Shown one piece after another: positions 5,967-29,962 of a stretch of 33,510 nucleotides of DNA; the stretch's first letter is position 1, and every line of letters begins with the position of its first letter. The DNA comes from Mycoplasmatota bacterium (lineage in GTDB: Bacteria; Bacillota_I; Bacilli_A; Acholeplasmatales; Acholeplasmataceae), in NCBI GenBank assembly GCA_024650045.1, contig JANKMU010000012.1, positions 26,050-59,559 of the forward strand, written 5' to 3'. Both the position numbers and the translations under genes were made by a program. The notes under the pieces were generated by a model. The model searched no databases. It worked only from the letters and a program-made list of their open reading frames with translations, and was not told the origin of the DNA.

Positions 5967-7436
5967 ATGAAAAAGATTTTGATGATATTTGCATTTGTCC
6001 TTTTAACTGTTGGTTTAGTTGCTTGTGGTGGGACAGAAGATCCAACCACTCCAATTGATACAGAAGATCCAACATTATTACCTGGACAAATAGAAATCAC
6101 GTATGCATCATGGGATTTAGGTTCACCCGAGTCTGAAGAACCTAATATGCAGCGATTGATGATTGAAGCATTTGAAGAAGAATATCCCGATATAAAAGTT
6201 AGAATTATTGAAAGACCTAAAGTTCCTGGAACTAATGATGACTTAGGATGGAATGAGTTTTTAGCAGCACGTGCTTCAACTCAAACATTACCTGATGTTT
6301 TTCAAGCAGATAATATCCCATTTTATGTTATTAATGATTGGGCATATAATTTAACAGCTATTGCAACTGCTGATGCTGAGTATTTAAATGTTAGTGAAGA
6401 TATCAGAGGTGTTTCTACATATAATGGTAAAGTCATGGCTATACCTAATGCTGTTCATTATGCTGGATATGTAGTTAATGAAACATTATATGATCGTCAA
6501 GGGCAAAATTATCCTGAAATCGATACAAATATGACTGATTTTCTTGCTTACACCAAAGCAGCAGCAAATCATGCTAGTAATAACAACACAGGTGTTGTAG
6601 GTCTAGAAGGTATCGAACATATTATTCATTGGTATCCAGCACAACTTAATGAAAACTATCGCTGGTTTACTTTGTCTGATGACGGATTTAACCTTGATTC
6701 AACAGAGTTTACAACAACGATGGAGTTATATAGAACTCTAAGAACTGATTCAACTTATGTTCTTGAAGCTTTATATGATGCAGCAGGTGCTGAAGATTCA
6801 CAAATAGAAATTGGAAACATCTTCCCAGAGGGAGATCCTTTTAATAATGGAAATATTCTTGCAAAATGGTTTTATTCTTGGGATTTCGGATGGATTCAAG
6901 CAAACATTAATTCAGGTCAGTACACGTGGGATCTTGAGTTTATAGGAACACCTGTCGTTGGTGGAAACAAACGTGTTCCGATTGTTGCTGATTTCTACAC
7001 GGTTGCATCAAATTCAGCTCACCCAGAAGAAGCATATTTGTTAGCAAAATGGATGGGTTATGGAAAAGATGGATATTTAAAACGTGTTGAATTATCAAAA
7101 ACTGTACAAGGTATTTCTCAAGTTAACTTTGCACCAATACAAAATGATGTTGAATTACTTGATGCATATTTTGAGTTGTATCCTAATTTCCAAGGTTTAA
7201 GAACTATTATTGAAACAGGCACATTCATTGTTGAACCACCTAAATATTTGCCTGGATATATCGCAGCAAGATACACTGGAACATATGATGCAGAAAATAA
7301 GATGTCAGACATCATGACTAGTTTGATGGCTGGAGAAGTTGTTTTAGCAGATATAAGAGCGCAATTGAACATACGAGCAAATGCATTGTATAATGAAGCT
7401 AAGAACAATTTTGAAAGTGCACTACAAAATAAATAA
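5967..7436 (+). CDS. ABC transporter sugar-binding lipoprotein (family 1)
   Basis: This 489-residue extracellular solute-binding protein belongs to the CUT1 (carbohydrate uptake) type. The signal peptide ends at the lipobox LVAC (Cys20), followed by a Thr/Pro-rich linker and ITYASWDLG, the usual first strand of family-1 binding proteins. Other typical segments are the FEEEYPDIKV helix-strand, LPDVFQADN in the first hinge region, and the late PEEAYLLAKWMGY helix. The protein would hand oligosaccharides to one of the two permease pairs encoded downstream. A strong Shine-Dalgarno (AAAGGAGG) precedes the ATG. It is separated from the lipoprotein gene by a terminator-like hairpin and from the next gene by a stable stem-loop. 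The substrate is predicted from context to be beta-1,2-gluco-oligosaccharide; the sequence alone does not prove this. Confidence 0.9.
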   Translation: MKKILMIFAFVLLTVGLVACGGTEDPTTPIDTEDPTLLPGQIEITYASWDLGSPESEEPNMQRLMIEAFEEEYPDIKVRIIERPKVPGTNDDLGWNEFLAARASTQTLPDVFQADNIPFYVINDWAYNLTAIATADAEYLNVSEDIRGVSTYNGKVMAIPNAVHYAGYVVNETLYDRQGQNYPEIDTNMTDFLAYTKAAANHASNNNTGVVGLEGIEHIIHWYPAQLNENYRWFTLSDDGFNLDSTEFTTTMELYRTLRTDSTYVLEALYDAAGAEDSQIEIGNIFPEGDPFNNGNILAKWFYSWDFGWIQANINSGQYTWDLEFIGTPVVGGNKRVPIVADFYTVASNSAHPEEAYLLAKWMGYGKDGYLKRVELSKTVQGISQVNFAPIQNDVELLDAYFELYPNFQGLRTIIETGTFIVEPPKYLPGYIAARYTGTYDAENKMSDIMTSLMAGEVVLADIRAQLNIRANALYNEAKNNFESALQNK

Positions 7437-7485: not shown

Positions 7486-7505
7486 AAATTATAATGGAGA
7501 AACAT

Positions 7506-10475
7506 ATGAAAATAACTGTTAAAATGAAAAAATACATAACACTCATATTGATTTTGATTGTTTCCTCCTTTATCGTATTGGGGCTAAGTGGAGTTTTTAG
7601 AAGTTCACAGACACCAAATCCAATTTTAACATCACTGGAATCAGTCTATCTAGAAGGATATTATTCTGAATATTTAAATATATACGAAGATAAACAAATT
7701 GGCACTGAACAATCTTATACGATTGATGCAGTGGATTTTGTCTTGCCTGAAGGTGAAACCTTAACAGAAGACTTGCAAAGTTTTGAATGGATTGATAATT
7801 CCAGTATCTTTATCAATGTAGATATTGATATTGAGGGTTTATATTATATACATGTAAATTTCAAATCATTATCTGTTTCACACATTCCAATTGGTCTTTC
7901 TATTAAGTTAAATGGAGAAGAGTTTGCACCTTATTATGAAGCCTCACAAATAACACTAGAAACATTATGGACTGAGACATCGTCAGAAATGGGTACAGAT
8001 CGATATGGTAATGACGTGAGCGTAACTCAAGAAACTTATAATATTGATCAAGACACAGTAATCAGAGATTCAAGAAAACTTTATAAAGATGGATTAGCAT
8101 TTTTCTTAGAACAAGGACATAATATAATTGAAATTGAAAAAATATCTGGTCAGTTACTTCTAAACGAAGTACGGGTTGAATCGAGAAAAACATATATTTC
8201 ATATGACCAGTATATCTCTTCATATTCTGAGCAAAATTTAAACTATATTAAAAGATTTGAAGCAGAAGAAAGTTTATATAAAAATTCATCAACGATATCA
8301 AGGGGTATAAATAGAGATCCATTGGTTGAACCATATTCAATGACAAAACTTAAACTTAACGTTTTAGGAACCGATTCATATGATAATGCTGGAGATGCAG
8401 TTACATGGAGTGCAGATATTGATCAATCAGGATGGTATTATATAACGTTTAAAGCATCGGTCGGAAGACAAAATACAACTTCCTATCGAACGCTATATAT
8501 TAATGGTGAACTACCTTTCGAAGAAGCAAGACATTTACCATTTTCTTATGATAGAAAATGGCAAAACATTACTTTGAAAACAGTGGATCATGAACCTTTG
8601 AGAATTTATCTTGAACCAGGTGATGAAATAACTCTTGAAGTTGATGGTACGCTATTTTCTGCTGTTTATGAAAAACTAAGAATTATAACAAATGAAATGA
8701 GTGAACTTGGTTTAGATGTAACTAAGTTGACTAGAAATAATACTGACAAAGGCATCGATTGGGTCATGCTAGATTATTTTCCAGATCTAAATGAGAAACT
8801 AGCTAAGTGGATAGAAGAATTAAATGGAGTTAATGATGTTTTAAGAGATTTATATGGCTTCGAAGGAGATGCACAGGTTGTGCGTGATATTGAAGCTGGA
8901 ATCTCAAGAATTGAAAAAATACAAAGTGATATTAATGAATTACCAAGGAGACTAACACTTTTATCAACAGGATCGTCAAGTGCAGTACAACTCATTACAA
9001 ATCAACTAGATAATATTTTAAAACAACCAGCAATCATTGATGCTTTCTTTATTCATGATAGTTTAGAAGATTTACCAAATCCTAACCCAGGATTCTTGAC
9101 GAATACATGGGTCTTTTTTGCTAGATTCTTCTTATCTTTTGTAGATCCTTCATATTCGGAGAAAGCTAGAGACGATGAATTAGAAGTCTGGGTCAATCGT
9201 TCTAGACAATATGTTGATATGATTCAAAAAATTTCGGATGATCAATTTACATTAGAGACCGGAATTAAAGTAAAAGTATCTTTAATTAATGATGATTCAA
9301 AATTACTTTTAGCAAATTCTGCAAACCAACAACCAGATGTTGCATTAGGTATATCAGCATGGATACCTAATGAATATGGTATGCGTGGAATGCTTTATGA
9401 TATGAGTCAAGCCAATGGATTTAGTGATACGATTCAAGTTTTTAACCCTGAACAACTCATTCCAATGACATACGATGATAAACTATATGGTTTACCAGAA
9501 ACTGAAAATTTCTTTGTCTTATTTTATAGAAGAGATATATTAGAACAACTTGATTTAACGGTACCAAATACATGGCAAGATGTGTTAAACATGTTGCCGG
9601 TCCTAAGAAGATATGGTATGAGTTTTTATATTCCATTATCATCATCAAGTGCTCTTAAATCTTTTGACTCAACAGCGCCATTCATTTATCAGTTTAATGG
9701 TCGTATTTATTCAGAAGATGGCTTATCATCAGCTATTGATAACGAGAACACGATACAAGCATTATCATTTATGACAGATCTTTATCGAGAGTATAGTATG
9801 CCATTCCAAGTTCCAAGTTTCTTCAATAGCTTTAGATATGGAGAAATACCTATTGGTATTGGTGACTTTGGTATGTATTTACAGTTAATGAATGCAGCAT
9901 CAGACATCAGTGGTTTATGGGAGATTGCATTAGTTCCCGGAATTGAACATGAGGTCTATAATGAGCAAACAAACTCTACAGAAACGTTTATAAACCGTTC
10001 AATTGGTGGTGCACAGCAAGCAAGCATTATATTTGAAAAGAGTGAGAAGAAAGATGAAGCTTGGCAATATATTTCATGGTGGATGTCAACAGAGACACAA
10101 CTATTATTTTCCGAAACAATGGTTAACACATTGGGAACTCGCTATTTATGGAATAGTGCCAATTTGGAAGCTTTTGAAGCATTTAGTTGGGATCCTAATC
10201 ATAAAGAAATTATTCTTGAACAATGGACTCACTTAAAAGAAGTACCAAAAATACCAGGTAGCTATATTATTGAAAGAGAGATAAGTAATACTTGGAATAG
10301 TGTTGTTTATAATGATGCAAATTTGAGAAGTACAGTTAGCGATGCACTTATTAAAATAGATCGAGAATTAGCACGAAAAATGATGGAATTTGGTTATTTA
10401 GATAATAGCGGTAACGTCGTTAAGCCATTTATACTACCAACAGTTGAGAATATCATGAGGTGGTATAATGATTAA
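7506..10475 (+). CDS. Membrane-anchored beta-sandwich / solute-binding fusion protein
   Basis: The protein has 989 residues from the ATG at 7506. This start is preferred over the ATG at 7494 because GGAG (7496-7499) sits 6 nt ahead of it, while nothing precedes 7494. Residues 10-30 form a hydrophobic anchor or signal without a lipobox. Two beta-rich, carbohydrate-binding-like domains follow at about 45-228 and 245-395; the second has FEAEES and [10 protein letters not shown] motifs. A largely helical stretch spans about 405-510. Residues 555-960 look like a family-1 solute-binding domain, with [43 protein letters not shown] and [12 protein letters not shown]. The family is usually 400-450 residues, so this is more than double length. 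Its stop overlaps the next permease start by 8 nt, which ties it to that transporter. The role as receptor and feeder for a glucan importer is inferred. Confidence 0.8.
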
Positions 10476-12314: not shown

Positions 12315-14336
12315 ATGAGAAAATATATCATCACCATTATTTTAATCATGAGTATCGTTTTATCATTGAGTTTCGATGTGAATGCATCGAGTCCTTCTTC
12401 GTATGGAATTCCTTATCAAACATATACTTTAAATGCAGAAAATCGTTTGATACCTACACAAACTGCATATATGCCAGTTGGTAATTTTGGAACTGAACTT
12501 AGCTTATCTTCTCCAGATGATATATTTTATGAAAATGATTTAATTTACATTGCAGATACAGGAAATAAAAGAATAGTTGTATCAGAATTAAATGGCCAAT
12601 TAGTTGATGTTATTACATTTCCTGAGTTTATGCAACCAACAGGCGTATTTGTTAAAGATGAGTTTATCTATGTTGCTGATAAACAAGCTAAAAATGTGTT
12701 TAAAATAGACATGTTAGCAAATGAAATCGTACAAACAATCGAAAAACCAACATCTCCAATATATGGACAGAAAAATGATTTTGTTCCCATAAAAGTTGCT
12801 GTTGATTCAAGTGATAGTATATATATTGTTGGAGAAGGATCGACTTCAGGAATTATTCAGTTAAATTATGCTGGAGAATTTGTTGGGTATTTAGGAATAA
12901 ACACAGTTGTCCTTAGTTTAAGAAGGATCTTATACAATTTTTTCGTTCAAGATCCAGATTTGGCATCATCACTTCCGGCATCTCCGACAAATATCGCTCT
13001 TGGATCTAAAGGATCTATTTTGTCTACCAATGTCAATGTTAATGAAACATTTAAAAGATTAAATATATCCGGGTTGAACACTTTACTACCAACAACTGTC
13101 TATCCTACACAGGCTTTATCTGATATTTGGATGAACCATGAAGATTATGTTTATCTTGTATCTGAAACTGGTGATGTTTATGAGTATGACAGTAATGGGA
13201 ATATGCTATTTTACTTTAACACTAGAGACCAAGCATTGACTCAAACACTTGGTTTAACATCAAATCCTAAGGGTGTTATAACTGATGCAAGTGGCAATCT
13301 ATATATTCTAGATCGCGGATATAATTCGATTCATGTTTACCAAAGAACAGTTTTTGTAGACTTAGTTCATGAAGCTGTAACATTATATAACGATGGAAAA
13401 TATCTTGAATCAAAACCTATTTGGGAAGAAATTATACGTCAAAATTCTTCGTTTGCATTAGCACATTCAGCACTCGGTGCTGCGCTAATGAAGGAAGGAG
13501 AATATGATAGAGCATTAGAAGAGTTTTATGATGCGAAAGATTATTTAGGTTACTCGAATGCATTTTGGGAAATCAGAAATGTCGCGATTCAAGAAAACCT
13601 TACAACATGGGCATTATTACTTATTGGTTTTTATGTATTCATGAAAATAGGGTTGAAAATATTTAGAAAATCCATGCTTTATCCGAAATATGAAAAGATA
13701 AAGCATACAATAAAAGATAAAAAACTTGTTCAGGAGTTAACTTTTAGCATGAATACATTTAAACACCCTGGAGATATGTTTTACGGAATAAAACGCGCCA
13801 ACAAAGCCAGTTATTTATCAGGATTTATAGTATTTTTGTTATTTGTTTTAGTTTATTTAATTAATTTTTATGGAACAGGATTCCTATTTAGATCAACTCA
13901 ATTAAATAGCGTACTCGTTCAACTTTTTACTGTTATTGGTGTATTTGTTCTCTATGTTGTTGTTAATTATTTAATTTCAACATTAAATGATGGTGAAGGA
14001 AGATTTAAAGATGTATTTATAGCAACAAGCTATATATTGGTTCCATATATTATTTTTACCCTTCCAATGACCTTGTTATCACACTATTTGACTTATAATG
14101 AAAGTTTCATTTTTGAGTTTTATCATCAGATCATTTTCGGTTGGACACTTATTTTGATGGTTATATCAATTAAAGGCGTACACAATTACACATTCTGGGA
14201 AACTATCAAAAATATAATAATTATTATTTTTGGTATGTTTATTTTAATTTTAATTGGTTTGCTCATATATTCATTCTTAGGTCAATTAATTGAGTTTATC
14301 CTATCAATCATCAAGGAGGTGATTTATCGTGTATAA
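12315..14336 (+). CDS. NHL/beta-propeller-TPR-Yip1 membrane protein
   Basis: A 673-residue modular protein. A signal peptide ends near VNA (residue 24). Residues 60-345 contain NHL-like propeller blades, with repeated patterns such as IYIADTGNKRIVV, IYVADKQAKNVFKID and LYILDRGYNSIHVY. A TPR-like helical pair lies at about 350-415 (LYNDGKYLESKPIWEEII and GEYDRALEEFYDAKDYLG). A membrane helix follows at 432-448. A C-terminal block of about five helices (490-670) resembles the Yip1 domain, with YLISTLNDGEGRFKDVF before the third helix. The propeller and TPR would face outside. It sits between two permease pairs and overlaps the next gene by 8 nt. I recall similar Yip1-annotated proteins beside large binding proteins and DUF5696 genes in Bacillota. 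The role, perhaps assembling or docking the surface machinery, is unknown. Confidence 0.7.
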   Translation: MRKYIITIILIMSIVLSLSFDVNASSPSSYGIPYQTYTLNAENRLIPTQTAYMPVGNFGTELSLSSPDDIFYENDLIYIADTGNKRIVVSELNGQLVDVITFPEFMQPTGVFVKDEFIYVADKQAKNVFKIDMLANEIVQTIEKPTSPIYGQKNDFVPIKVAVDSSDSIYIVGEGSTSGIIQLNYAGEFVGYLGINTVVLSLRRILYNFFVQDPDLASSLPASPTNIALGSKGSILSTNVNVNETFKRLNISGLNTLLPTTVYPTQALSDIWMNHEDYVYLVSETGDVYEYDSNGNMLFYFNTRDQALTQTLGLTSNPKGVITDASGNLYILDRGYNSIHVYQRTVFVDLVHEAVTLYNDGKYLESKPIWEEIIRQNSSFALAHSALGAALMKEGEYDRALEEFYDAKDYLGYSNAFWEIRNVAIQENLTTWALLLIGFYVFMKIGLKIFRKSMLYPKYEKIKHTIKDKKLVQELTFSMNTFKHPGDMFYGIKRANKASYLSGFIVFLLFVLVYLINFYGTGFLFRSTQLNSVLVQLFTVIGVFVLYVVVNYLISTLNDGEGRFKDVFIATSYILVPYIIFTLPMTLLSHYLTYNESFIFEFYHQIIFGWTLILMVISIKGVHNYTFWETIKNIIIIIFGMFILILIGLLIYSFLGQLIEFILSIIKEVIYRV

Positions 14337-16572
14337 ACCTTTGATTATTAAACGATTATTGATATTTATTATTGCAGTTTTATTTATTTCTTTCTCAGTT
14401 TCTGCACTCGATAAATCTTCTTTGGTGGATGTTGATATTCCAAGCTTTGATGTCATTAGTCCATATGTTGATTCAAACAAATACACGCATAAAAAAAGTG
14501 ATGCATTCGCATTTAACCAACAAAATTTCTTTAATGACCCTATTGAGATTGTTACCAGTTCAGGTATTGCTTATCTAGATGAAGAGTCATTAGCATTTCA
14601 AGTTGTTAATGGTAACGGTTATATATGGTCTTCAACAATAGATTATGATGTTGAAGGTTTACCTAATACATTTAAACAACGAGCGCGCAGTGCAATTATT
14701 TTAGAATCATATAATTCTGAAGCAACCAATTTTGCGATTACTGAAGAAAATTTATTTACTAACGATACTGTAGTAGCAACTCAAATAATTACAAATGGTT
14801 TTCATTCAACAATTACATTTGGACGATCAGGAATAACTATAGGATTATATGTGACATTTGGTTATAATAAAATAACTGTCGAAATACCAGATAATGAAAT
14901 TGATGAATCAGGTATTTTCAAAATATCTAGTATAAAAGTCTATCCATATTTCGGAGCTGTTTTAGAAGATAGTATTCCAGGATATGTATTTTTACCAGAT
15001 GGTATCGGAGCACTCATAGATTATAAAACAGCAAACCCATTGGTTAGCACAAATTATCAAAAAGAAATATATGATCGAAATATTGGTTACAATACAGAAA
15101 CTAACATGAATAATTTCTTAAGTGGTGGAACTAGAATCTACGCACCAGTTTTTGGATTTGTTCATGGTGTGAATCAAAATGCGGTTTTTGCAGAAATTAA
15201 AGATGGTGCACCTTATGGCATGATTAACTTGTATTTTCCTGCAAGAACAAGAGGATATACAACAGTCTTTGCAGAGTTTGTTTTTAGAAAAACGTATAGA
15301 CAACCTATAGATAAAGTCGGTAATACTATTTCATTACTACAACAGTTTAGCAATGCAGTTTCAATAAAGATAGAGTATACGTTACTAGAAAATGAAGATG
15401 CTAATTATGTCGGTATGGCAAAAGCATATAGAGATAGTCTGTCTTCTGAGTTAAATAAAAATGATTTTCAGTTTGATGACATACCATTAAAGTTAGACAC
15501 AATAGGCATTGAAAGAAAAGAAGGGTTATTATTCCCTAAGACGATTGTTATGACTACATTTGAGCAGTTTCATGAAATTGTTAAAGACTTAAATGATAAA
15601 GAGATTTACCATATTATTGGAAACTACCAAGGATTTACAAAGCAAGGTGTTACATGGTCAGCCCCAAATTATGAAAAAGCATCGTTGCGATTGGGAAATA
15701 TGAATGACCTTGAAGAGTTGAGTAGATCATTAACTGAGTTATATTTTGTTACGGAATATATGAAAGCTTCAAACCGCTCTAGTGGATACAATCAGTATTT
15801 TGATTTAGCTAAAAAAATAAATGATCAACTTTATCAATATTTATCGTCAACTGATCAGAAATATCTGTTACAGCACGATAAAATGGAAGCATTACTTTTA
15901 GAAAGTTATAATGAATTGAAAAAATATCCAATTGATGGTTTAGCAATTCAATCAATGGGAAGTTTGTTGTATGATGATTTTTCTAAACAAAATTATTTGC
16001 CAGAGTTAATTGATGTCCTTAAGTCATCGCTTGATTCTATAGATGCTCAAATCGCTTTATATGATGTTAATCAATATTTATGGGGTCATGTCTCAAATTT
16101 CTATGACTTCCCGATGTATTCTAGTCAATATATAACTTTTGATGACACCGTACCATTCTTATCGATTGTTTTAAGTGGAAGTGTTCAGTTATTTGGTCCA
16201 CATGCTAATTTTTATCCATACGCAAGAGATGAGTTATTAAGATTAATTGATTTCGGTGTTTATCCTTCGTTTATTGTAACGCATGAATCATCGATTAAAC
16301 TTCAAGAAACAGGACTTGAATCTATTTACTCATCTAGATATCAAGATATACAGTATTCTATTGATACATACTATCACTTTGTCAATGATGCATTAAAACA
16401 TGTGATTGGAGCAAATATTAATTATCGTGAAGTAATAGAAAATGGAGTAGTTTCTATTACTTATGATAATCATATTCAAATTGTTGTTAATTATCGTAGT
16501 ACAACTTTCATATATGCAGATCAAACGATTGATGCAAAATCATACATAATCATTAAATTAGATGAAGAATAG
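14329..16572 (+). CDS. Secreted DUF5696-like protein, possible glycosidase
   Basis: The protein has 747 residues from a GTG start at 14329. The start is fixed by AAGGAGGT (14313-14320) at 8-nt spacing, and the gene overlaps the previous one by 8 nt. A signal peptide ends near VSA (residue 26) with no lipobox. The N-terminal half (about 50-330) is beta-rich and contains PGYVFLPDGIGALIDY near residues 218-234, a segment I associate with DUF5696 proteins. The next part (about 355-690) alternates strands and helices in a way compatible with a TIM barrel, ending in a short beta tail. This two-part layout is like many glycoside hydrolases, but I cannot assign catalytic acids. It lies between two sugar permease pairs and upstream of GH144 genes, so a role in extracellular glucan processing is plausible. 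Family assignment is from memory of the motif. Confidence 0.65.
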   Translation: MYKPLIIKRLLIFIIAVLFISFSVSALDKSSLVDVDIPSFDVISPYVDSNKYTHKKSDAFAFNQQNFFNDPIEIVTSSGIAYLDEESLAFQVVNGNGYIWSSTIDYDVEGLPNTFKQRARSAIILESYNSEATNFAITEENLFTNDTVVATQIITNGFHSTITFGRSGITIGLYVTFGYNKITVEIPDNEIDESGIFKISSIKVYPYFGAVLEDSIPGYVFLPDGIGALIDYKTANPLVSTNYQKEIYDRNIGYNTETNMNNFLSGGTRIYAPVFGFVHGVNQNAVFAEIKDGAPYGMINLYFPARTRGYTTVFAEFVFRKTYRQPIDKVGNTISLLQQFSNAVSIKIEYTLLENEDANYVGMAKAYRDSLSSELNKNDFQFDDIPLKLDTIGIERKEGLLFPKTIVMTTFEQFHEIVKDLNDKEIYHIIGNYQGFTKQGVTWSAPNYEKASLRLGNMNDLEELSRSLTELYFVTEYMKASNRSSGYNQYFDLAKKINDQLYQYLSSTDQKYLLQHDKMEALLLESYNELKKYPIDGLAIQSMGSLLYDDFSKQNYLPELIDVLKSSLDSIDAQIALYDVNQYLWGHVSNFYDFPMYSSQYITFDDTVPFLSIVLSGSVQLFGPHANFYPYARDELLRLIDFGVYPSFIVTHESSIKLQETGLESIYSSRYQDIQYSIDTYYHFVNDALKHVIGANINYREVIENGVVSITYDNHIQIVVNYRSTTFIYADQTIDAKSYIIIKLDEE

Positions 16573-16582
16573 GAGGTAAAAC

Positions 16583-18415: not shown

Positions 18416-19831
18416 ATGAAAACAAAATCAAGATTTAAAATATTCAATTTAAATAGGTGTTTATTAATCATCATCTTTGTCTTATTTTCAGTTGTATTGT
18501 TTGCATGTGCTTCACCTATTGAAACTATCGTCCCAACTGAACCAACAACACCAATTGAAACTGAATTTCCAGATGAAAATACAAAACTTTATAGAACAGA
18601 TGTTAGAACAGATGTGAGTCAGGTAGTTCTTGACGAACTTGAACTCGGATTTCTGTTTTTCTGGGAATTAGCAAATGATGATCTTGAATCTAATGGATAT
18701 GGTTTAATTCCAGATAGATTTAATACATTTACAGGTAATCCAGGAGGTGTTTCAAGTATAGCTTCTGTAGGTTATGGGTTGAGTGCGATTCCAATTGGTA
18801 TTGAAAATGATTGGATAACTAGACAAGAGGCTGAAGAAAGAGCTTATTATACATTAGTCACATTTCAAAATATGCAAAGAACACATGGTTTTTGGTATCA
18901 TTTTGTAAATATGTCGACTGGACTTAGAGAGTGGAACTCAGAAGTTTCAATTATTGATTCAGCTATTTTTATCAATGGTGCACTAACTGTAGGTAGATAT
19001 TTTGGCGGTCGTGTACAACAATTAGCATATCAACTTTATGAAGAAATTGAATGGAATTGGTATTTCGATGCAGTTAATAATATGTTTTACATGGGATATC
19101 GTCCTGAGTCAGGTTTCGAAGGATATTGGGATCACTATGGAGAGCAACTCATGATTTATGTTTTGGCTGCAGGTAGTCCAGATTATAAAGTCGGAAAAGG
19201 CGCATTTCAATTAATGAAATTTTCATCGACACTAACAAGTTCAACAGAAGATTATGATAGTTTTTATTTGACATGGACTGGATCATTATTTACCTATCAG
19301 TATTCACATGCATGGGTAGATTTTGCTTCATATGTCGATTGGCAAGGATATTCATGGTTTGAAAACAGTGTAAATGCAGTAGATGCAGCCATTGCATATG
19401 CAAAAACTAGAACGGACTTTATTGGAATACATGAGAATTCCTGGGGTATGTCAGCATCTGATGGTCCAAGTGGGTATGTAGGCCCATATGGAAGTGCACC
19501 ATCAGCAGGAAATGCACATGTTGTTGATGGAACAGTTCCTGCATATGGAGCGATAGGATCGATTGTGTTTAGACCACAAGAAGCAATAGCTGCTATGGAA
19601 AATTATCGAACATATAATCGTTTTTGGAGTCAATATGGATTTAAAGGTGCTTATAACCTCGATTATTCAACCAATGGTTGGTTCGCTAATGATATTATAG
19701 GTATTGATAAAGGGATTTCAGTATTAATGTTAGAAAATTACATGTCACAAATGATATGGAAAATATATATGGAAGTACCATATATTATTGATGGATTAGA
19801 AACACTTGATTTTACATTAATAGAGGGATAA
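18416..19831 (+). CDS. GH144-type lipoprotein, putative endo-beta-1,2-glucanase
   Basis: The protein has 471 residues from the ATG at 18416. AGGAGA (18405-18410) sits 5 nt before it, and an upstream in-frame ATG at 18374 lies inside the permease gene and lacks support. The signal peptide ends in LFAC (Cys31), so it is surface-anchored. The remainder (about 70-465) matches the glucoamylase-like (PF10091) fold that includes GH144. It shows GYGLIPDR, SSIASVGYGLSAIPIGIE, HGFWYHFVN, SEVSIIDSAIFINGALTVGRYF (E176, D181), YGEQLMIYVLAAGSP (E243), SASDGPSGY, DGTVPAYGA and GIDKGISVLMLENY. Characterised GH144 enzymes cut beta-1,2-glucan internally to sophoro-oligosaccharides. With the GH94 and GH3 genes downstream this specificity is likely, though not proven by motif alone. 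Confidence 0.85.
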   Translation: MKTKSRFKIFNLNRCLLIIIFVLFSVVLFACASPIETIVPTEPTTPIETEFPDENTKLYRTDVRTDVSQVVLDELELGFLFFWELANDDLESNGYGLIPDRFNTFTGNPGGVSSIASVGYGLSAIPIGIENDWITRQEAEERAYYTLVTFQNMQRTHGFWYHFVNMSTGLREWNSEVSIIDSAIFINGALTVGRYFGGRVQQLAYQLYEEIEWNWYFDAVNNMFYMGYRPESGFEGYWDHYGEQLMIYVLAAGSPDYKVGKGAFQLMKFSSTLTSSTEDYDSFYLTWTGSLFTYQYSHAWVDFASYVDWQGYSWFENSVNAVDAAIAYAKTRTDFIGIHENSWGMSASDGPSGYVGPYGSAPSAGNAHVVDGTVPAYGAIGSIVFRPQEAIAAMENYRTYNRFWSQYGFKGAYNLDYSTNGWFANDIIGIDKGISVLMLENYMSQMIWKIYMEVPYIIDGLETLDFTLIEG

Positions 19832-19849: not shown

Positions 19850-21073
19850 ATGAAAAACTTAGATTTAGTGGAAATACAAAAAACAGCTTTTGATTATTTT
19901 ATGAACTATACGAATTTTAATCCAGAATCAAAGGGTTATGGACTAACAGTAGATGCAACACACAAACCAGAAAAGGCTTCTATTGCAGCCACCGGATTTA
20001 TGTTATCAAGTCTTGTTATTGGTATTGAAAATCACTATATATCGTATGAACAAGCTTATCATAAAGCGTTAATGACTTTAAATACTCTTGTAAGTCATGT
20101 TGATCATCAATTTGGTTTTTTTGCTCATTTTCTTGATATAGAAACTGGCCAACGTTACCATAAATGTGAGTACTCTACAATTGATACAGCTTTGTGTCTA
20201 TGTGGGGTATTGACCGTAGATGCATATTTTAAAGATCAAAAAATCACACAACTCGCAAAAATTATTATTGAACGCATTGACTGGGAGGTTCTTTTTCATC
20301 AATACTTAAATAGACCGATACTTTACATGTCTTACAATCCTGATAAAGGTGGAGATTATGTTGAAAAAAAACCAGGTTTCATTCACCAATGGGATATGTT
20401 TGCTGAACAACTTATGATGTATGTTATGATTGGTGGAAGTCAATATAGTCATCATGCAAAAGCTTTATATGATGGATTTGAAAGAGATAGAGGACAATTT
20501 CAAGATTTTGAATATATTTATTCACCTGGTAATGCATTGTTTGTTTACCAGTTTCCAATGGCATGGCTAGACTTAAAAGATGTTGTTGATCAAGATGGAA
20601 TGAATTGGTTTGAAAATGCTAGACAAGCAACACTTGCACATCAAGCATGTTCTATATTTTATCAAGATCAATTAAGGACTCATAATCAGTATTTCTTTGG
20701 ATTTACAGCCTCAGACACACCAAAAGGTTATCGTGTTTTTGGTGGATTGCCAAATCGTACAAACAAAATAAATAGTGATGGAACGGTTGCCCCATATGGA
20801 TGTATTGGATCACTTATTTTTACTCCAGAAATATCCATAGCTTCGATTAAAGAAATGCGCAAAATCAAAGGTTTATGGGGACCATATGGGTTTTATGATG
20901 CATTTAATTTTGAACACGAACAACCTTGGATAAGCAATCATTACATATCAATTGATAAAGGATTAGAGATGTTAATGGTTAATGCATTTTTATCTCAAGA
21001 TGTATATAAAGCTTTTATGTCACATCAAGTGATTAAAACCGGTATGGAGGTTTTAGGATGGAAAAGAAAGTAG
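19850..21073 (+). CDS. Cytoplasmic GH144-type paralogue
   Basis: A 407-residue protein without signal peptide or lipobox, so it is probably cytoplasmic. It is collinear with the preceding GH144 lipoprotein: GYGLTVDATH, SIAATGFMLSSLVIGIE, FGFFAHFLDIETG, CEYSTIDTAL (E107, D112), AEQLMMYVMIGGS (E186), TASDTPKGYR, DGTVAPYGCIGS and SIDKGLEMLMVNAF. The candidate carboxylates are retained in the same order, so it looks active rather than decayed, but identity to the paralogue is modest. The gene starts 18 nt after the lipoprotein gene behind AGAGGA and overlaps the GH13 gene by 16 nt. An internal endo- or exo-acting beta-1,2-glucanase would imply that fairly long or cyclic glucans enter the cell. 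Its exact mode is unknown. Confidence 0.8.
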   Translation: MKNLDLVEIQKTAFDYFMNYTNFNPESKGYGLTVDATHKPEKASIAATGFMLSSLVIGIENHYISYEQAYHKALMTLNTLVSHVDHQFGFFAHFLDIETGQRYHKCEYSTIDTALCLCGVLTVDAYFKDQKITQLAKIIIERIDWEVLFHQYLNRPILYMSYNPDKGGDYVEKKPGFIHQWDMFAEQLMMYVMIGGSQYSHHAKALYDGFERDRGQFQDFEYIYSPGNALFVYQFPMAWLDLKDVVDQDGMNWFENARQATLAHQACSIFYQDQLRTHNQYFFGFTASDTPKGYRVFGGLPNRTNKINSDGTVAPYGCIGSLIFTPEISIASIKEMRKIKGLWGPYGFYDAFNFEHEQPWISNHYISIDKGLEMLMVNAFLSQDVYKAFMSHQVIKTGMEVLGWKRK

Positions 21074-22683
21074 ATTGGTGGAAAAAAGCGATTGTCTATC
21101 AAATCTATCCATTAAGTTTTAAAGACTCAAACCAAGACGGTATTGGAGATTTAAATGGTATAAACTCTCAACTGGGTTATATCAAAAATTTAGGGGTAGA
21201 CGTTATCTGGTTAAGTCCTGTTTATCAATCTCCAATGGATGATAATGGATATGATATCAGTGATTATTTGAGTATAAATCCAATATTTGGGACCATGGAG
21301 GAAATGGAAAACTTAATTTCAAACATTCATAAAAGAGATATGAAGATTATTATGGATCTAGTTGTTAATCATACATCAGATGAACATCAGTGGTTTATTG
21401 AAGCTAAAAAATCAAAAAAAAATCCTTTTAGAGATTATTATATTTGGAGAGATCAACCCAATCAAATTGAATCTGTTTTTAGTGGTCCAGCATGGACTTA
21501 TGATGAAACAACCAATCAATATTACTTTCATTTGTTCAGCAAGAAACAACCTGATTTGAACTGGCAAAATACTGAGTTAAGGACAAAAGTTTATCGGATT
21601 ATTAATTACTGGTTGGACAAAGGAATTGATGGTTTTAGGTTAGATGTCATTGATTTAATTGGAAAAGATATTGAATCCATGAAATTAAGTGATGGTCCAT
21701 ATTTAAATCAATATCTTGAAGAAATGTATCATTATTGCTTTAAAGGACGAGATATAATGACGGTTGGAGAAATGCCTGGTTTATCGATTGAAAGAGCATC
21801 AGAAATTACAAATCAAGAAAAACCTTTACTTAATATGATATTTCAGTTTTCACACATTAGCTTAGATGAACAACCTGGTCAAGGAAAATGGGTACTTAAA
21901 AAACTAAATCTTGTTGAGTTTAAGAGCGTTTTTGAAAAGCTACAAAAGGCATTGTTTGAAAAAGGTTGGAATAGTTTGTTTTTAACAAATCACGATCAAC
22001 CAAGAGCAGTTTCTAGATTTGGCAACTTATCGTATCGAAAGAAAAGTTCAAAAATGCTTGCAACTATATTGTATTGCATGCAAGGGACACCTTATGTTTA
22101 CCAAGGTGAAGAAATAGGAATGACTGGTGTCAAATATAAATTAAGTCAGTATAAGGATATAGAAACACTGAACATGTATAACGAATATTTAAAAAAAGGA
22201 TTATCTCATGAAAAAATCATGGAATCTATTTATGCAAAAGGACGAGACAATTCAAGAACACCATTTCAGTGGGATGATACAGCATATGCAGGATTTTCAA
22301 AAGTTGAACCTTGGATTGATGTGAATCCCAATTATTTAGAAATAAATGCAAAAAAAGATTTAAAAGAAGATGATAGCATTTTTAATTATTTTAAAGAATT
22401 GTTTTCAATCAGAAAAAAATACCAAGTTTTTGATTATGGATCATTTGAGTTAATATATCCTGACCACAGTCAATTATTTATTTACCAAAGAACTAATCAA
22501 AATGAATCTATTTTGGTTATTGGATCTTTTTCAGATAAAGAAATCGAAGTCGATTTATTAAAATACGAAAAATATCATTGTTTATTATCAAATGAAGATA
22601 CAATTAATCTTAAACATGCGGTCATACCACCATATTATTGCGGAATCTATTATACAAAGGAGAATCATTATGCCAACCATTAA
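21058..22683 (+). CDS. GH13 alpha-glucosidase, oligo-1,6-glucosidase-like
   Basis: A 541-residue cytoplasmic enzyme of the GH13 oligo-1,6-glucosidase/alpha-glucosidase group. The N-terminus has WWKKAIVYQIYPLSF and DGIGDLNG. The catalytic barrel carries DLVVNHTSDEH, GFRLDVIDL (nucleophile D196), TVGEMPG (acid/base E238) and NHDQPRAVSRFG (D313). The residue after the nucleophile is valine (V197), which in characterised members goes with alpha-1,6 preference; alanine or threonine goes with alpha-1,4. A short beta domain ends the protein. The start is set by GGAGG (21046-21050). It overlaps the GH144 paralogue by 16 nt and the LacI gene by 14 nt. An alpha-glucosidase inside an otherwise beta-glucan cluster is unexpected; it may open the alpha-1,6 link found in some cyclic beta-1,2-glucans. 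Confidence 0.9.
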   Translation: MEKKVDWWKKAIVYQIYPLSFKDSNQDGIGDLNGINSQLGYIKNLGVDVIWLSPVYQSPMDDNGYDISDYLSINPIFGTMEEMENLISNIHKRDMKIIMDLVVNHTSDEHQWFIEAKKSKKNPFRDYYIWRDQPNQIESVFSGPAWTYDETTNQYYFHLFSKKQPDLNWQNTELRTKVYRIINYWLDKGIDGFRLDVIDLIGKDIESMKLSDGPYLNQYLEEMYHYCFKGRDIMTVGEMPGLSIERASEITNQEKPLLNMIFQFSHISLDEQPGQGKWVLKKLNLVEFKSVFEKLQKALFEKGWNSLFLTNHDQPRAVSRFGNLSYRKKSSKMLATILYCMQGTPYVYQGEEIGMTGVKYKLSQYKDIETLNMYNEYLKKGLSHEKIMESIYAKGRDNSRTPFQWDDTAYAGFSKVEPWIDVNPNYLEINAKKDLKEDDSIFNYFKELFSIRKKYQVFDYGSFELIYPDHSQLFIYQRTNQNESILVIGSFSDKEIEVDLLKYEKYHCLLSNEDTINLKHAVIPPYYCGIYYTKENHYANH

Positions 22684-23629
22684 AGATGTTGCAAAAAAAG
22701 CAGGTGTATCGATATCAACTGCTTCATACGCACTCAACCATTTACCCAATGTTCATCCAGACACAAGGAAGAAGGTGTTTCAAGCAGCACAAGAACTTAA
22801 TTACTATCCTAATGGCAATGCTAAGAATTTAAAAAAGAGAAAAACTGGAAATATTGGAGTTTTCATTTATGGATTCTCTGGACCGATTTTTAGCGATGTT
22901 TTAGAAGGTATTCGCCACAAATTACAAGAAAACAACTACAACATCATTGTAAGTAGTGGTAAATCTTCGACAAACTTACTACAAGAAAGACAAGTTGATG
23001 GAGCGGTTATATTTGATGCACAGATTACAGATTCTGATTTATCAGCATATGCAAGTCATGGACTACCACTTATCGTCTTAGATCGAAAACTTGAAGGATA
23101 TAATATATATTCTAGTGTTATTGAAAATGATGTACTTGTATATAATTTTATAAAACAAATGATTGAAAGAGGATATGATGATTTCGCATATATTAGTGGT
23201 CCATTGGATGCTTTTAATAATAACCAACGATATGAAGGGTTTAAAAAGGCTTTGCATGAAAAGGGTATTTTGAAACATCAATATTACCAAGGCGATTTTA
23301 CAATTCAAGCTGGATATGAGGCAGGGCGAAAAATCATTGGAAGAAAAGACCGTCCAAGATTTGTTTTCTGTGCAAATGATGAATCAGCGATTGGACTCAT
23401 TCAAGCACTTAATGAAGCCAATATAACGATACCAGATGAGATAGCTTTGGCTGGATTTGACAATATTTACTTAGGGCAATATATTAAACCCAAATTAACA
23501 ACAATAGGAATTGATCATATACTTTGGGGAGAGAAAGTAGCTGAAGCAATCATAAAAATCGTCTCAGGGCAAACAGTTAAGAAAATAGAAAAACCTGTAG
23601 GAGAAATATATGAGCGAGAAAGTTGTTAG
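22670..23629 (+). CDS. LacI-family transcriptional regulator
   Basis: The protein has 319 residues from the ATG at 22670. AAGGAG (22657-22662) at 7-nt spacing and the standard MPTIKDVAKKAGVSISTASY opening fix this start; an earlier in-frame ATG lies within the GH13 gene. Residues 3-22 are the helix-turn-helix, followed by the hinge helix (TRKKVFQAAQELNYYPN), with the effector-binding periplasmic-binding-like domain after about residue 60 (GNIGVFIYGFSG, FVFCANDESAIGLIQALNE, IALAGFDN). It is the obvious candidate to bind the AAACGTTT palindromes at 1813 and 1966. The gene lies inside the operon it may control, which would give autoregulation. The inducer is probably a sophoro-oligosaccharide; that is inferred. 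Confidence 0.93.
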   Translation: MPTIKDVAKKAGVSISTASYALNHLPNVHPDTRKKVFQAAQELNYYPNGNAKNLKKRKTGNIGVFIYGFSGPIFSDVLEGIRHKLQENNYNIIVSSGKSSTNLLQERQVDGAVIFDAQITDSDLSAYASHGLPLIVLDRKLEGYNIYSSVIENDVLVYNFIKQMIERGYDDFAYISGPLDAFNNNQRYEGFKKALHEKGILKHQYYQGDFTIQAGYEAGRKIIGRKDRPRFVFCANDESAIGLIQALNEANITIPDEIALAGFDNIYLGQYIKPKLTTIGIDHILWGEKVAEAIIKIVSGQTVKKIEKPVGEIYERESC

Positions 23630-24566
23630 ATGGATAGAACCAAAAGACTTCAATGATTTTTGGAACAATCAAATATCGAATATTGAATCAGTCAACCCAA
23701 ATTTTCAAGTTATAAAAACTGAAGATTTTACTCAAGATGGCACATGTGTATACTTTAAATTTACAGGAGCACAACATGAAACACTTTATGGTTTCTATCT
23801 CAAACATAACAAACAAGAAAAAACACCAGCTGTTCTACATTTTCATGGATATTGGTGGCATAAAGGTGAACCTAGCGATTATTTGGATTGGTTTTTAGAA
23901 GGTTATGCGGTAATTGTGATGGATATACGCGGTCAAAAAGGTGAGTCTAAAGATACATATCCTTATAAGAGTGGATTTAAAACTGAAGATCATCGGCTGA
24001 TGGTACGTGGTATTGAAGATCCGAATGAATCTTATCTGTTGCATGTTTGTCTTGATGGATATCAACTAGTCAAGATTGCAAAATCATTACCATTTGTTAA
24101 TAAGAATGAGATTATTTTAGATGGATACTCGCAAGGTGGAGGTATGGTTGTTACATTAGGTGGATTAACAAAAGTATCTTTAATATGTGCTGATGTTCCA
24201 GGTAATACCCACTTTTATTATAGATACCACAACCAATCTGGTTCAGGTATGGAGTTTTACAATTATGTTAAAGAAAATAATGCTAATGCTGAAAAAATAC
24301 TCAGCAATTTAAAATACTTTGATAATATATTCCACGCTAAACGTATTCAATCACCAATCTTAATATCTGTTGGTTTGGTAGATAAAATTTGTCCAGCTAG
24401 TTACTTTAAATATGCATATAAGAACATTAAATCCGATAAACATTTAGTAGAGTATGAAGGTGCAGGACATGAAGGCGGAGAAGAGAGACATCAAAAAATA
24501 AAACTTACTTGGGTGAGGGAGAAATTAAATGAAAATAGACAACTTGCTAAAACAACTAACAACTAA
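23610..24566 (+). CDS. CE7-type acetyl esterase (acetylxylan esterase family)
   Basis: A 318-residue cytoplasmic alpha/beta hydrolase with all three CE7 family marks: RGQ (107-109), GYSQG with Ser174, and the HE pair at His287. Asp258 (GLVDKIC) is the likely third triad member. Family members remove acetyl groups from xylo-oligosaccharides, cephalosporin C and small acetylated sugars, usually inside the cell as hexamers. The length matches the family. TAGGAG (23598-23603) marks the start. The gene overlaps the LacI gene by 20 nt and the GH3 gene by 38 nt. In this cluster it would most simply strip acyl decorations from imported glucan fragments; the true substrate is not visible. Confidence 0.88.
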   Translation: MSEKVVRWIEPKDFNDFWNNQISNIESVNPNFQVIKTEDFTQDGTCVYFKFTGAQHETLYGFYLKHNKQEKTPAVLHFHGYWWHKGEPSDYLDWFLEGYAVIVMDIRGQKGESKDTYPYKSGFKTEDHRLMVRGIEDPNESYLLHVCLDGYQLVKIAKSLPFVNKNEIILDGYSQGGGMVVTLGGLTKVSLICADVPGNTHFYYRYHNQSGSGMEFYNYVKENNANAEKILSNLKYFDNIFHAKRIQSPILISVGLVDKICPASYFKYAYKNIKSDKHLVEYEGAGHEGGEERHQKIKLTWVREKLNENRQLAKTTNN

Positions 24567-26682
24567 AGAAAAAATTGGACAGCTATTACAACTGGCACCT
24601 TTCTACTTTGATATAGATCTAAAAGCAGAAGTTGCTGGTAGAATTAGAAGTCTTAATATAGACCGAGAAGGTATCTTTATGTCTGGCTCAGTTTTAGGTA
24701 TTTCGAATGCTAGTGAAATGATAAAGGTACAACAAAAATATCTAGATATAAACAAACATAAAATACCATTAATGTTTATGGCTGATATTATTCATGGCTA
24801 TGAAACCATTTTTCCAGTCCCTATAGCTTTAGCATCATCATTTAATCCTTTAATAGCTTTTCAAACTGCTAGAATATCTGCAATTGAAGCATCAACTGCA
24901 GGTATCCATGTTACATTTTCTCCAATGGCTGATCTATCTAGAGATCCCAGATGGGGTAGAGTTGTAGAAAGTTTTGGTGAAGATCCTTATTTAGCAGGTG
25001 TGTTCTCAGCACAAATGGTGAAAGGTTATCAAAATGAAGGTATTGAAAAAATTGGTAATCTTGCTGCATGTGTTAAACATTTTGCAGCATATGGAGCATC
25101 AGAAGCAGGAAGAGACTACAATACTGTTGATGTTTCAAAAACAGCACTATATAATATGTATTTAAAAAGTTACAAAACAGCAATAGATGCTGGTGCGAAA
25201 ATGATGATGACAGCTTTTAATGTTCTTGATGGTGTACCAGCGACAATTAATAAATATTTGTTAAGAACAGTTTTAAGAGATCAATGGAAATCTGATGCAG
25301 TTACTATTTCGGATTATGATTCATTAAAACAAGTTTTAGATCATGGATGTGCGGAAAATGAAAAAGATGCTGCATACCGAGCAATTCAAGCTGGGCTTGA
25401 TATTGAAATGGCATCAGTTTGCTATGTTAATTATCTTGAAGAATTAATTGATGAAGGTATTGTTGATATCAAAAAATTAGATGAAGCTGTTTTGCGTGTC
25501 TTACAATTGAAAAAAGATTTAGGATTATTTGAAGATTCTTTTAAAGGTGCTAGTATTGATCGTGAAAAAGAATTAGTTCGTTCAAAAGAACATTTAAAAA
25601 TAAGTAAAAAAGTCGCGCTAGAAAGCGCTGTATTACTTAAAAACGAACAAACACTTCCACTAAATAAAAAACAAAAAATTGCTTTAATAGGACCCTATGC
25701 GAAATCTAAATCAACGAACGGACCATGGTCTTGGCACGGAAAAATAGAACACAATTTATCTCTTGAAGAAGTTTTTAGTAACAATAACATCAACCTAACA
25801 TTTGTTTCTGATGCAGAAAACATTGATCAATTAAGTCAACAGAATATTACTCAAATTGAAGCATCCGAAGTCGTTGTTTTAGCTTTAGGAGAGGATGCTA
25901 GACTAAGTGGTGAAGCACATTCACGTAGTGACATCAAATTGCCTAATCATCAAGATACACTGGTTAAACTAGCACGTTCACTAAATAAAGAAGTTGTCGT
26001 TATTTTATTTAACGGAAGACCTTTAGATTTATCAAATATTATGGACTCAAACGCTATTTTAGAAACATGGTTTTTGGGCAGTCGTGCTACAGAAGCGATA
26101 TTTGATTTAATATATGGACATGCTAATCCTTCTGGTAAACTTCCAATGAGTTTTCCTCGAACTGTAGGCCAAATTCCTGTTTATTATAACCACTTAAATA
26201 CAGGACGTCCTTTGACAGATAACAATCAAAATTATGAATATCTATCAAGATTTTTAGATGTTGAGAATACGCCATTATTTAGTTTTGGACATGGATTATC
26301 ATATGCTTCATTTAAGTATTCAGATTTAGAAATAAGTCAAATTGAATTTGATATAGATACGACATTGCGTCTTTCAATAAATGTCACAAATGAAAGTCAG
26401 ATTCCTGGACATGAAGTTGTTCAGCTATATATAAGAGACCATGTTGCAAAAATTTCAAGACCTGTTAAGGAATTAAAGAAGTTTAAAAAAATATGGCTTG
26501 AGGGAAAACAAACTCAAACAGTAGTTTTTGAATTAGATATTCACGATTTGTCTTATTTTGATTCAAATGGAAATGAAACATATGACTCTGGTAAATTCAC
26601 AATTATGGTTGGATCCAATTCACAAGAAACACTAAATATTGATATTTGGTTGAAGGGGGTTAAACATGATTATCAAAAATAA
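24529..26682 (+). CDS. GH3 beta-glucosidase, likely sophorose-type
   Basis: A 717-residue cytoplasmic GH3 enzyme with the usual order: a TIM-like domain, an alpha/beta sandwich and a C-terminal fibronectin-III-like domain (about 615-700). Visible motifs are FSPMADLSRDPRWGRVVESF, the CVKHFAAYG pair, TISDYDSL with nucleophile Asp262, and GEAHSRSD with the probable acid/base Glu462. There is no signal peptide. GAGGGAG (24515-24521) precedes the ATG; the gene overlaps CE7 by 38 nt and GH94 by 17 nt. GH3 next to a 1,2-beta-oligoglucan phosphorylase recalls the Listeria innocua lin1839-lin1840 pair, where the GH3 enzyme acts on sophorose. The family is certain; the linkage preference is inferred from context. 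Confidence 0.92.
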   Translation: MKIDNLLKQLTTKEKIGQLLQLAPFYFDIDLKAEVAGRIRSLNIDREGIFMSGSVLGISNASEMIKVQQKYLDINKHKIPLMFMADIIHGYETIFPVPIALASSFNPLIAFQTARISAIEASTAGIHVTFSPMADLSRDPRWGRVVESFGEDPYLAGVFSAQMVKGYQNEGIEKIGNLAACVKHFAAYGASEAGRDYNTVDVSKTALYNMYLKSYKTAIDAGAKMMMTAFNVLDGVPATINKYLLRTVLRDQWKSDAVTISDYDSLKQVLDHGCAENEKDAAYRAIQAGLDIEMASVCYVNYLEELIDEGIVDIKKLDEAVLRVLQLKKDLGLFEDSFKGASIDREKELVRSKEHLKISKKVALESAVLLKNEQTLPLNKKQKIALIGPYAKSKSTNGPWSWHGKIEHNLSLEEVFSNNNINLTFVSDAENIDQLSQQNITQIEASEVVVLALGEDARLSGEAHSRSDIKLPNHQDTLVKLARSLNKEVVVILFNGRPLDLSNIMDSNAILETWFLGSRATEAIFDLIYGHANPSGKLPMSFPRTVGQIPVYYNHLNTGRPLTDNNQNYEYLSRFLDVENTPLFSFGHGLSYASFKYSDLEISQIEFDIDTTLRLSINVTNESQIPGHEVVQLYIRDHVAKISRPVKELKKFKKIWLEGKQTQTVVFELDIHDLSYFDSNGNETYDSGKFTIMVGSNSQETLNIDIWLKGVKHDYQK

Positions 26683-29600: not shown

Positions 29601-29962
29601 TTCATAAGATAAGATCTGGGGAAATAAAAGTTAAAGGAGGATGGAGATTGTATTCGAGTGGTCCAGGTATATATCTAAACCAACTGATATCCAATTTTCT
29701 TGGCATACGAATCGAACACCAACATTTGGTTATTGATCCAGTACTTCCAAAGAAACTAGATGGTTTAGTTTTTGAATACAACTATTTAGATAAACCGATA
29801 GAAATCCACTATCATTATGGAAGTGAGAACCATCTTATAAACAATCAACCATTACCATTTAAGCCTTACATGCAAAAATATAGACATTCCGGTATAATCA
29901 TCGATCGTAAAGTAGTTGAGAACATTAAGACCAATATCAAATTGGATATATGGTATAAATAA
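26666..29962 (+). CDS. GH94 phosphorylase, putative 1,2-beta-oligoglucan phosphorylase
   Basis: A 1098-residue cytoplasmic enzyme without signal peptide. The N-terminal third is beta-sandwich, and the C-terminal (alpha/alpha)6 barrel has GAAWGTRDICQGPIEFFSTT, ETGDFPQWYMFDKYYQIQ, DSHGDIIIWPL and YGGGDWDDTLQPA (746-758). The last corresponds to the DWND region of GH94, with Asp753 the likely general acid. Length and motif style fit 1,2-beta-oligoglucan phosphorylase (about 1100 residues) better than cellobiose or laminaribiose phosphorylases, which are shorter. The reaction would be phosphorolysis of sophoro-oligosaccharides to alpha-glucose-1-phosphate, which saves ATP. It lacks the glycosyltransferase part of cyclic glucan synthases. 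Last gene of the cluster, overlapping GH3 by 17 nt and followed by a terminator. Confidence 0.88.
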   Translation: MIIKNKLQTQEIRNGDLIFRILESGDIYSIEYYDHQINLLNGNIIDGSIANIYLRIFQDDKISYTKLIGTHSPSSFELFSDRIIYFGEFENIKYQVTLTVEKMTWQYDISVKSDKTITFDLIYGQDVAISNKGSILSSEAYTVQYIDYKVFNHQNGYVLCARQNQGKPQYLQLGSHHPNVAYTTDGFQFFGLSFKETGCPQAMTEERLVSEIYQYEFSYMALQSDKNVIDGNEVNYSFYGHYQDDHQKVIENYYEIKPLETDLKWRETISEKRSKSLLNTSNQLNGKHLEYHQIKDEFKEISLEEYHEDQLISFFTANHHHVVLKQKELLVERPHGHLLLHGDIKHVSENVMASTNFMFGVFSSHVVLGNTSFNKLTGSLRNPLNITKISGQRIYVNIKGVYYILGIPSYYDIGVNSTKWVYVIENDVLTVEVFAHIDDMQQALHVYSKKGNQYDFIVTNQLLMGPNEYAYDIPIEVNDDDDEINILLPKDSMAIHRYPHLKYKFIIGQPFSLIDEEEVFNITNQFGLLMIKIEKQTQFSIDVLATIDEKFQLPLKKTYKEVDDEGTLYFKSFTHHFNLTQKKDNENLRKTNHIVFWYTHNALTHYASPHGLEQSNGAAWGTRDICQGPIEFFSTTQNYDIVREIILKVYQRQFIETGDFPQWYMFDKYYQIQAHDSHGDIIIWPLRSLAYYLKATNDFSILEEQIPYMSLELNDFTEKTSLMEHLKLQIETMIESFIPNTYLPAYGGGDWDDTLQPANHDLTKIMVSGWTVSLLYEALNQLSIELNDYDKSYSIEVKTLAQNIKKDYEKHIIADGIPSGFVVFNNEEKTYLLHPRDQKTGLKYRLLPFTRALISEISNQSQVETYMQIINEQFKHPDGVRLMDTTVAYKSGKMTYFTRAETAANFGREIGLQYVHAHIRYIEAMAKIGKADEAFEGLLTINPILIEKQVPNAYYRQSNVYFSSSDAWFKDRYEAKKDFHKIRSGEIKVKGGWRLYSSGPGIYLNQLISNFLGIRIEHQHLVIDPVLPKKLDGLVFEYNYLDKPIEIHYHYGSENHLINNQPLPFKPYMQKYRHSGIIIDRKVVENIKTNIKLDIWYK

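Follow-up and report, generated by a model that had tools for sequence, protein, structure and literature searches.

NHL-TPR-Yip1 and DUF5696 proteins as probable accessory subunits of a CUT1-type ABC glycan importer with two permease pairs in an Acholeplasmataceae-like genome

The window analyzed in this study, a stretch of 33,510 nucleotides from a Mycoplasmatota bacterium (GenBank assembly GCA_024650045.1, contig JANKMU010000012.1, positions 26,050 to 59,559 of the forward strand), comes from an Acholeplasmataceae-like genome and contains a run of same-strand genes between eno and rnr/smpB. Two genes of this run, encoding an NHL-TPR-Yip1 protein and a DUF5696 protein, are the subject of this work. 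Their open reading frames (ORFs) overlap by 8 bp and lie exactly between two pairs of ATP-binding cassette (ABC) sugar permeases, P1/P2 and P3/P4, and all four flanking ORFs were identified as BPD_transp_1 permeases by Pfam. This arrangement, described in an earlier sequence-only reading of the window, was fully borne out. The run starts with two unknown proteins (226 and 1262 aa) followed by the solute-binding proteins SBP2 and SBPbig, P1, P2, NHL-TPR-Yip1, DUF5696, P3 and P4, and continues with two PF10091 enzymes, a glycoside hydrolase (GH) family 13 gene, a LacI gene, an acetyl-xylan-esterase-like hydrolase, a GH3 enzyme and a 1,2-beta-oligoglucan phosphorylase (SOGP). The seven genes from SBPbig to P4 recur together as a cassette.

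Conservation of the cassette was determined across about 32 assemblies, which provided 62 loci comprising the DUF5696 neighbourhoods of relatives and of the rest of the sampled group, and family hidden Markov models (HMMs) were built from these loci. The order SBPbig-P1-P2-NHL/Yip1-DUF5696-P3-P4 was found in 62/62 DUF5696 loci examined, apart from contig ends (loci L083 and L093) and four fusions of P3 with P4, and an SBPbig HMM match was present in every locus reaching far enough upstream. The gap between the NHL/Yip1 and DUF5696 genes ranged from -50 to +16 bp (61 loci). The cassette was also present on plasmid pNP243 of Butyrivibrio fibrisolvens (Clostridia) and on a plasmid of Paenibacillus cellulosilyticus (Bacilli). 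Moreover, DUF5696 (over cut-off) and NHL-TPR-Yip1 proteins occurred in the same 61 of 101 related genomes, and no genome contained only one of the two. The distances of these two proteins gave the top rank correlation among the 21 pairs of the seven cassette proteins (raw 0.90, partial 0.54), above the P1-P2 pair, for which a correlation was expected (0.41); these values are confounded by shared ancestry. The closest named match to the window DUF5696 protein was from Peloplasma aerotolerans (85%). These findings clearly show that the placement of the gene pair is not due to chance, because it recurs between both permease pairs at every DUF5696 locus examined. The neighbourhood survey, which had been suggested together with the first description, thus made the association with sugar transporters clear.

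Apparent departures from the cassette were checked individually. Loss of P3 in loci L052, L096, L100 and L103 was rejected, since P3 and P4 are fused there into one permease of approximately 630 aa (positions 7197-9077 in L052), indicating that P3/P4 is a heterodimer. Missing permeases in L078-L080 were also rejected; they reflected antisense ORF calls, and P1-P4 were present once all frames were checked.

Table 1. Features of the window locus, with positions counted from the first nucleotide of the window
Feature	Position	Strand	Description
SBP2	5967..7436	+	Lipoprotein-type solute-binding protein, 489 aa; PF01547 7.9e-8; PDB 22hh 2e-48
SBPbig	7494..10475	+	Membrane-anchored solute-binding protein, 993 aa; PF13416 3.6e-18; N-terminal region like carbohydrate-binding module (CBM) family 35 (CBM35 sub-threshold)
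P1	10468..11415	+	ABC sugar permease, pair 1; PF00528 1.8e-8
P2	11425..12306	+	ABC sugar permease, pair 1; PF00528 3.6e-11
NHL-TPR-Yip1	12315..14336	+	673 aa; Pfam NHL/TPR/Yip1; transmembrane segments
DUF5696 protein	14329..16572	+	747 aa, GTG start; PF18952 3.3e-139
P3	16583..17473	+	ABC sugar permease, pair 2; PF00528 3.4e-6
P4	17470..18414	+	ABC sugar permease, pair 2; PF00528 6.2e-18
GA1	18416..19831	+	Endo-beta-1,2-glucanase-like, PF10091 4.5e-54; PDB 8xul 1e-52, 5gzh 9e-30; substrate-specific part
GA2	19850..21073	+	Second PF10091 enzyme, 1.4e-48; substrate-specific part
LacI-family regulator	22592..23629	+	Regulator of the locus; PF00356 3.7e-19, PF13377 1.6e-25
GH3	24529..26682	+	Beta-glucosidase, Lin1840-like; PF00933/PF01915; PDB 4zoa (Lin1840) 6e-194; substrate-specific part
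SOGP	26666..29962	+	1,2-beta-oligoglucan phosphorylase, GH94-like; PF21250, PF21958; PDB 5h3z 3e-252; substrate-specific part

The EAA-type loop (relaxed motif) was retained in 60/60 P1, 59/59 P2, 54/55 P3 and 57/57 P4 orthologues. Loss of the motif in P1 was considered and rejected, the loop being an EAG variant. The CUT1-type set of a solute-binding protein and two BPD_transp_1 permeases is present twice in the window. A solute-binding protein adjoins P4 on the far side in some loci, and on this ground SBP2 probably works with the second pair, P3/P4, and SBPbig would serve P1/P2. The window locus lacks an ATPase gene. Elsewhere, the source genome encodes three MalK-type (PF17912) ATPases, and in Paenibacillus ugpC lies directly upstream of the cassette. 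Since the EAA loops are kept and MalK-type ATPases are available elsewhere in the genome, both permease pairs could be powered.

The completeness of each permease pair, together with the presence of two binding proteins, would also fit two independent importers that share an operon, the NHL-TPR-Yip1 and DUF5696 proteins serving only one of them or a general upkeep of the envelope. To our knowledge, the importer of Listeria innocua Lin1841 has one permease pair only, which counts in favor of this explanation. However, no examined locus uncut by a contig end carried a single permease pair with both proteins, the gene order does not vary from Bacilli to a Clostridium-class plasmid, with the two genes exactly between the permease pairs, and a role in general upkeep would not explain why each substrate cassette has its own copy. 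Independent importers therefore seem improbable to us.

The NHL-TPR-Yip1 protein gave Pfam matches to NHL (1.1e-9) and Yip1 (PF04893, 5.8e-13) and a sub-threshold match to TPR (1.9e-4), and its profile matches in the PDB were NHL/Pizza propellers and TPR designs. An N-terminal signal helix precedes the propeller and TPR, followed by a transmembrane (TM) segment near residue 429, a basic linker and five Yip1 TM segments after residue 490, in agreement with the joining of a propeller and TPR to a Yip1-like membrane block that had been read from the sequence before. From the signal helix and the positively charged linker, propeller and TPR are predicted to face the outside of the cell. In one clade, the NHL-TPR-TM and Yip1 parts are separate adjacent genes, and in locus L105 they are found in one 1002-aa protein. 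An ABC precedent for Yip1 proteins exists in YknW, which modulates YknXYZ assembly (PMC4887032).

The pair also has a receptor-like layout, with the extracellular propeller, TPR and GH-like parts attached to a membrane block, and a regulator is encoded nearby in several loci (LacI in the window, a response regulator in L039 and a histidine kinase in L117). The two proteins might thus act as a surface sensor reporting glycan binding to the locus regulator instead of being part of the transporter. This appears highly unlikely, as neither protein has a cytoplasmic signalling domain by Pfam and TM analysis, and the type of regulator varies whereas the NHL-TPR-Yip1/DUF5696 pair is constant.

The fold of DUF5696 was assigned from sequence profiles; AlphaFold2 models built from six sequences were poor, with a predicted local distance difference test (pLDDT) of 40.5 for DUF5696 and 51.9 for NHL-TPR-Yip1. 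A 31-sequence DUF5696 profile matched the DagB structures 5opq (7.8e-11) and 8rzk (7.9e-11) and the GH129 enzyme NagBb (5wzn, 1.2e-3) in the PDB. When DUF5696 was aligned by hhalign with three GH129 proteins (NagBb match of the first protein, 3.5e-195), homology extended over window residues 207-730 (96.5%, 8.5e-10). By these profile matches, DUF5696 is distantly homologous to glycosidases of the GH129/GH101 type. The homology covers a beta-sandwich, the barrel and a C-terminal beta domain, so that of the two-part glycosidase-like layout described earlier the glycosidase likeness was upheld but three parts fit better than two. Weak PF18952 matches in GH13-like ORFs were rejected as DUF5696 proteins, and they agree with the resemblance between GH101 and GH13 barrels (PMC8106489). 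In the window protein the sole hydrophobic segment is N-terminal and the protein is predicted to be exported. Identity among the three DUF5696 copies of the source genome was only 20-24%, compared to 34-61% for P1/P2.

Residues were mapped by aligning the 62 DUF5696 sequences with NagBb and DagB. NagBb H320, D322, D330, H366 and D435 correspond to N432, Q434, T442, V474 and Q541 in the window protein, the first four presumably being metal or ligand residues; H320, D322 and H366 are Ala in the NagBb variant chain 5wzq. An acidic residue (D/E) was found at position 434 in 1/62, at 442 in 4/62 and at 541 in 25/62 sequences, the last position being Q, E or L among the closest relatives. The segment holding NagBb E478, which we take to be the second catalytic acid (the chain does carry Glu at 478), is a gap in 62/62 sequences, in a part where the alignment is uncertain. 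Counterparts of DagB Asp486, Glu517 and Glu531 were not conserved, the DagB alignment being shaky there, and the region of the DagB partner-chain Asp202 aligns near DUF5696 position 251, which is D in 48/62 sequences and N in the window. No carboxylate was invariant across all 62 sequences. Conserved positions were mostly Gly, Pro, Tyr, Asn and Thr, and acids stood out only at 224 (58/62) and 641 (62/62; 31 D and 31 E), with D606 invariant within the window clade. In this alignment, every mappable GH129 catalytic or ligand position appears to be lost, variable or deleted.

DUF5696 might nevertheless be an active glycoside hydrolase with other catalytic residues, trimming the substrate on the cell surface ahead of its import. 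Its GH129/GH101-like fold, the acids at 224, 606 and 641 and the location of its gene among degradation enzymes are consistent with this, and so is the case of DagB. The catalytic Asp435 of NagBb is said to equal DagB Asp486, and DagB, a relative with a partly changed catalytic set, keeps only this member of the NagBb pair yet is active (PMC5698469). Residue loss alone is therefore no proof that DUF5696 is inactive. We still regard an active hydrolase as rather unlikely, since the residues at D322, D330 and D435 of NagBb are replaced in the window by Q, T and Q without being conserved and the E478 segment is deleted, position 541 differs even between the closest relatives, DUF5696 goes with the importer whatever the substrate, unlike a linkage-specific enzyme, and the cassettes have dedicated GHs besides it. 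Its cutting residues having apparently been lost, DUF5696 more likely assists the importer than acts as an enzyme. The sequence-only reading had considered a role in cutting the substrate; this was not supported, because DUF5696, although related to GH129, lacks the conserved paired carboxylates, and, as far as sequence tells, the absence of a plausible active site speaks against the enzymatic half of that proposal.

The explanation we favor, and consider reasonably probable, is that a 'twin' CUT1-type ABC glycan importer has NHL-TPR-Yip1 and DUF5696 as its constant accessory subunits, because both are encoded between the permease pairs in overlapping or near-overlapping frames. DUF5696 would be a non-catalytic pseudoenzyme at the outside of the membrane, where it may bind glycan chains or serve as a dock for the binding proteins. 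By analogy with YknW, NHL-TPR-Yip1 may use its outside propeller/TPR and its Yip1 block in the membrane to anchor both DUF5696 and the permeases, and through this tether or assembly protein both permease pairs could work as a single unit and draw on one MalK/MsmX-type ATPase whose gene lies elsewhere. Several points weigh against this explanation. Synteny, homology and residue loss were observed, and from these we infer the physical complex and the handling of ligand. Residue loss was read from an alignment, and the DUF5696 AlphaFold2 model is of low quality (pLDDT 40.5). The conserved acids at 224 and 641, and in the window clade also at 606, leave room for an active site of a non-GH129 kind. 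The window DUF5696 protein could be fully secreted instead of anchored, and shared ancestry confounds the co-evolution statistics of the cassette proteins. A more far-reaching version, which is possible but doubtful, is a supercomplex in which two ABC importers are held together by a Yip1-NHL-TPR scaffold plus a dead enzyme of glycosidase descent, the latter retaining polysaccharide chains and passing them on. This would be an undescribed general uptake machine of Gram-positive and wall-less bacteria and a counterpart of SusCD.

The substrate of the window locus is very probably beta-1,2-glucan, because SOGP matches 5h3z, GH3 matches Lin1840, GA1 matches endo-beta-1,2-glucanase structures and the solute-binding domain of SBPbig has Lin1841 as its best PDB match (9e-17). 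The Listeria innocua protein Lin1841 binds beta-1,2-glucooligosaccharides (PMC10318527, its reference 51). A GH13 alpha-amylase-family gene (21058-22683) is found inside this beta-1,2-glucan locus. The 1262-aa protein (2030-5818, + strand) has partial relatives in several beta-1,2-glucan-type cassettes (L004-L008, L084, L096 and L100), and it gave no Pfam or NCBIfam match over cut-off and no PDB match.

The source genome contains three copies of the cassette. One of them sits before genes for GH16 and a response regulator, and another (L038) is followed, at positions 12841-17996, by genes for DUF624, NamZ, GH3, a BadF/ROK-type kinase and a MurQ/GKRP-like protein. The NamZ, GH3, kinase and MurQ/GKRP-like genes suggest that the latter is likely a locus for utilization of peptidoglycan sugars, in a relative of wall-less bacteria. 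By their neighbouring enzymes, the three cassettes thus point to beta-1,2-glucan (window), a beta-1,3-glucan-type substrate and peptidoglycan, respectively. Downstream genes in other cassettes encode GH30, GH5, GH13, GHL10, NAGPA or large Ig-like proteins, and a GH43 gene lies upstream of the cassette in Butyrivibrio. Since the same cassette adjoins NamZ/GH3/kinase/MurQ-like, GH16, GH30, GH5, GH43 and NAGPA genes, among others, it is a constant transporter part combined with varying enzymes and is not glucan-specific. The proposal that the two genes are an uncharacterised part of a glucan importer therefore held for their constant membership and, very probably, for the glucan at this locus, but not for the cassette in general.

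Other neighbours were also recorded. In L086, L088, L095 and L099, the gene directly after P4 encodes a very large surface protein (1156-2299 aa) of the Ig-like type (PF16403), and a DUF4127 protein follows the cassette in L056 (2380-3894). In Paenibacillus (L118, 12874-18338), three LLM-class flavin-dependent oxidoreductases are encoded downstream of the cassette, which hints at an unusual substrate.

No paper describing the cassette or DUF5696 was found in a literature search that largely lacked subscription papers. All parts belong to named families; the assembled cassette and a likely GH129-derived pseudoenzyme subunit were not found in the literature searched. With this proposal, DUF5696 and a class of Yip1 proteins acquire a role that can be tested. 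It also suggests that Acholeplasmatales and other Bacillota employ one modular glycan importer for substrates as different as beta-1,2-glucan, beta-1,3-glucan-type glycans and peptidoglycan. The cassette can be used as a marker for new polysaccharide utilization loci (PULs) in these genomes. If the supercomplex were true, it would be a rare ABC importer needing dedicated extra subunits and a repurposed glycosidase.

Among known systems, CUT1 importers of the maltose/MsmX type and the Lin1841 system share with the cassette a binding protein, heterodimeric EAA-loop permeases and, presumably, an ATPase encoded elsewhere, and the likeness to Listeria extends to the window enzymes and the solute-binding domain, which match Listeria SOGP, Lin1840 and Lin1841. 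In contrast to classical CUT1 systems, the cassette adds a second permease pair, a CBM-bearing binding protein, NHL-TPR-Yip1 and DUF5696. The GH129 alpha-N-acetylgalactosaminidase NagBb, the GH129-like anhydrogalactosidase DagB and GH101 enzymes are homologous to DUF5696 over most of the protein; DUF5696 differs in that their catalytic and ligand positions appear to be lost, deleted or not conserved, in its single N-terminal hydrophobic segment and in being fixed in an importer cassette. In YknWXYZ, too, an ABC transporter has an accessory partner from the Yip1 family of membrane proteins, but YknW stands alone as a Yip1 protein and belongs to an exporter, whereas the Yip1 part of the cassette is fused to, or lies beside, NHL-TPR and the transporter is an importer. 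Finally, the PULs of Bacteroidetes with SusCD also combine a constant uptake module with variable polysaccharide-degrading enzymes. Compared to these, the parts of the cassette are unrelated, uptake is ABC driven, and the cells are Gram-positive or wall-less and have no outer membrane.

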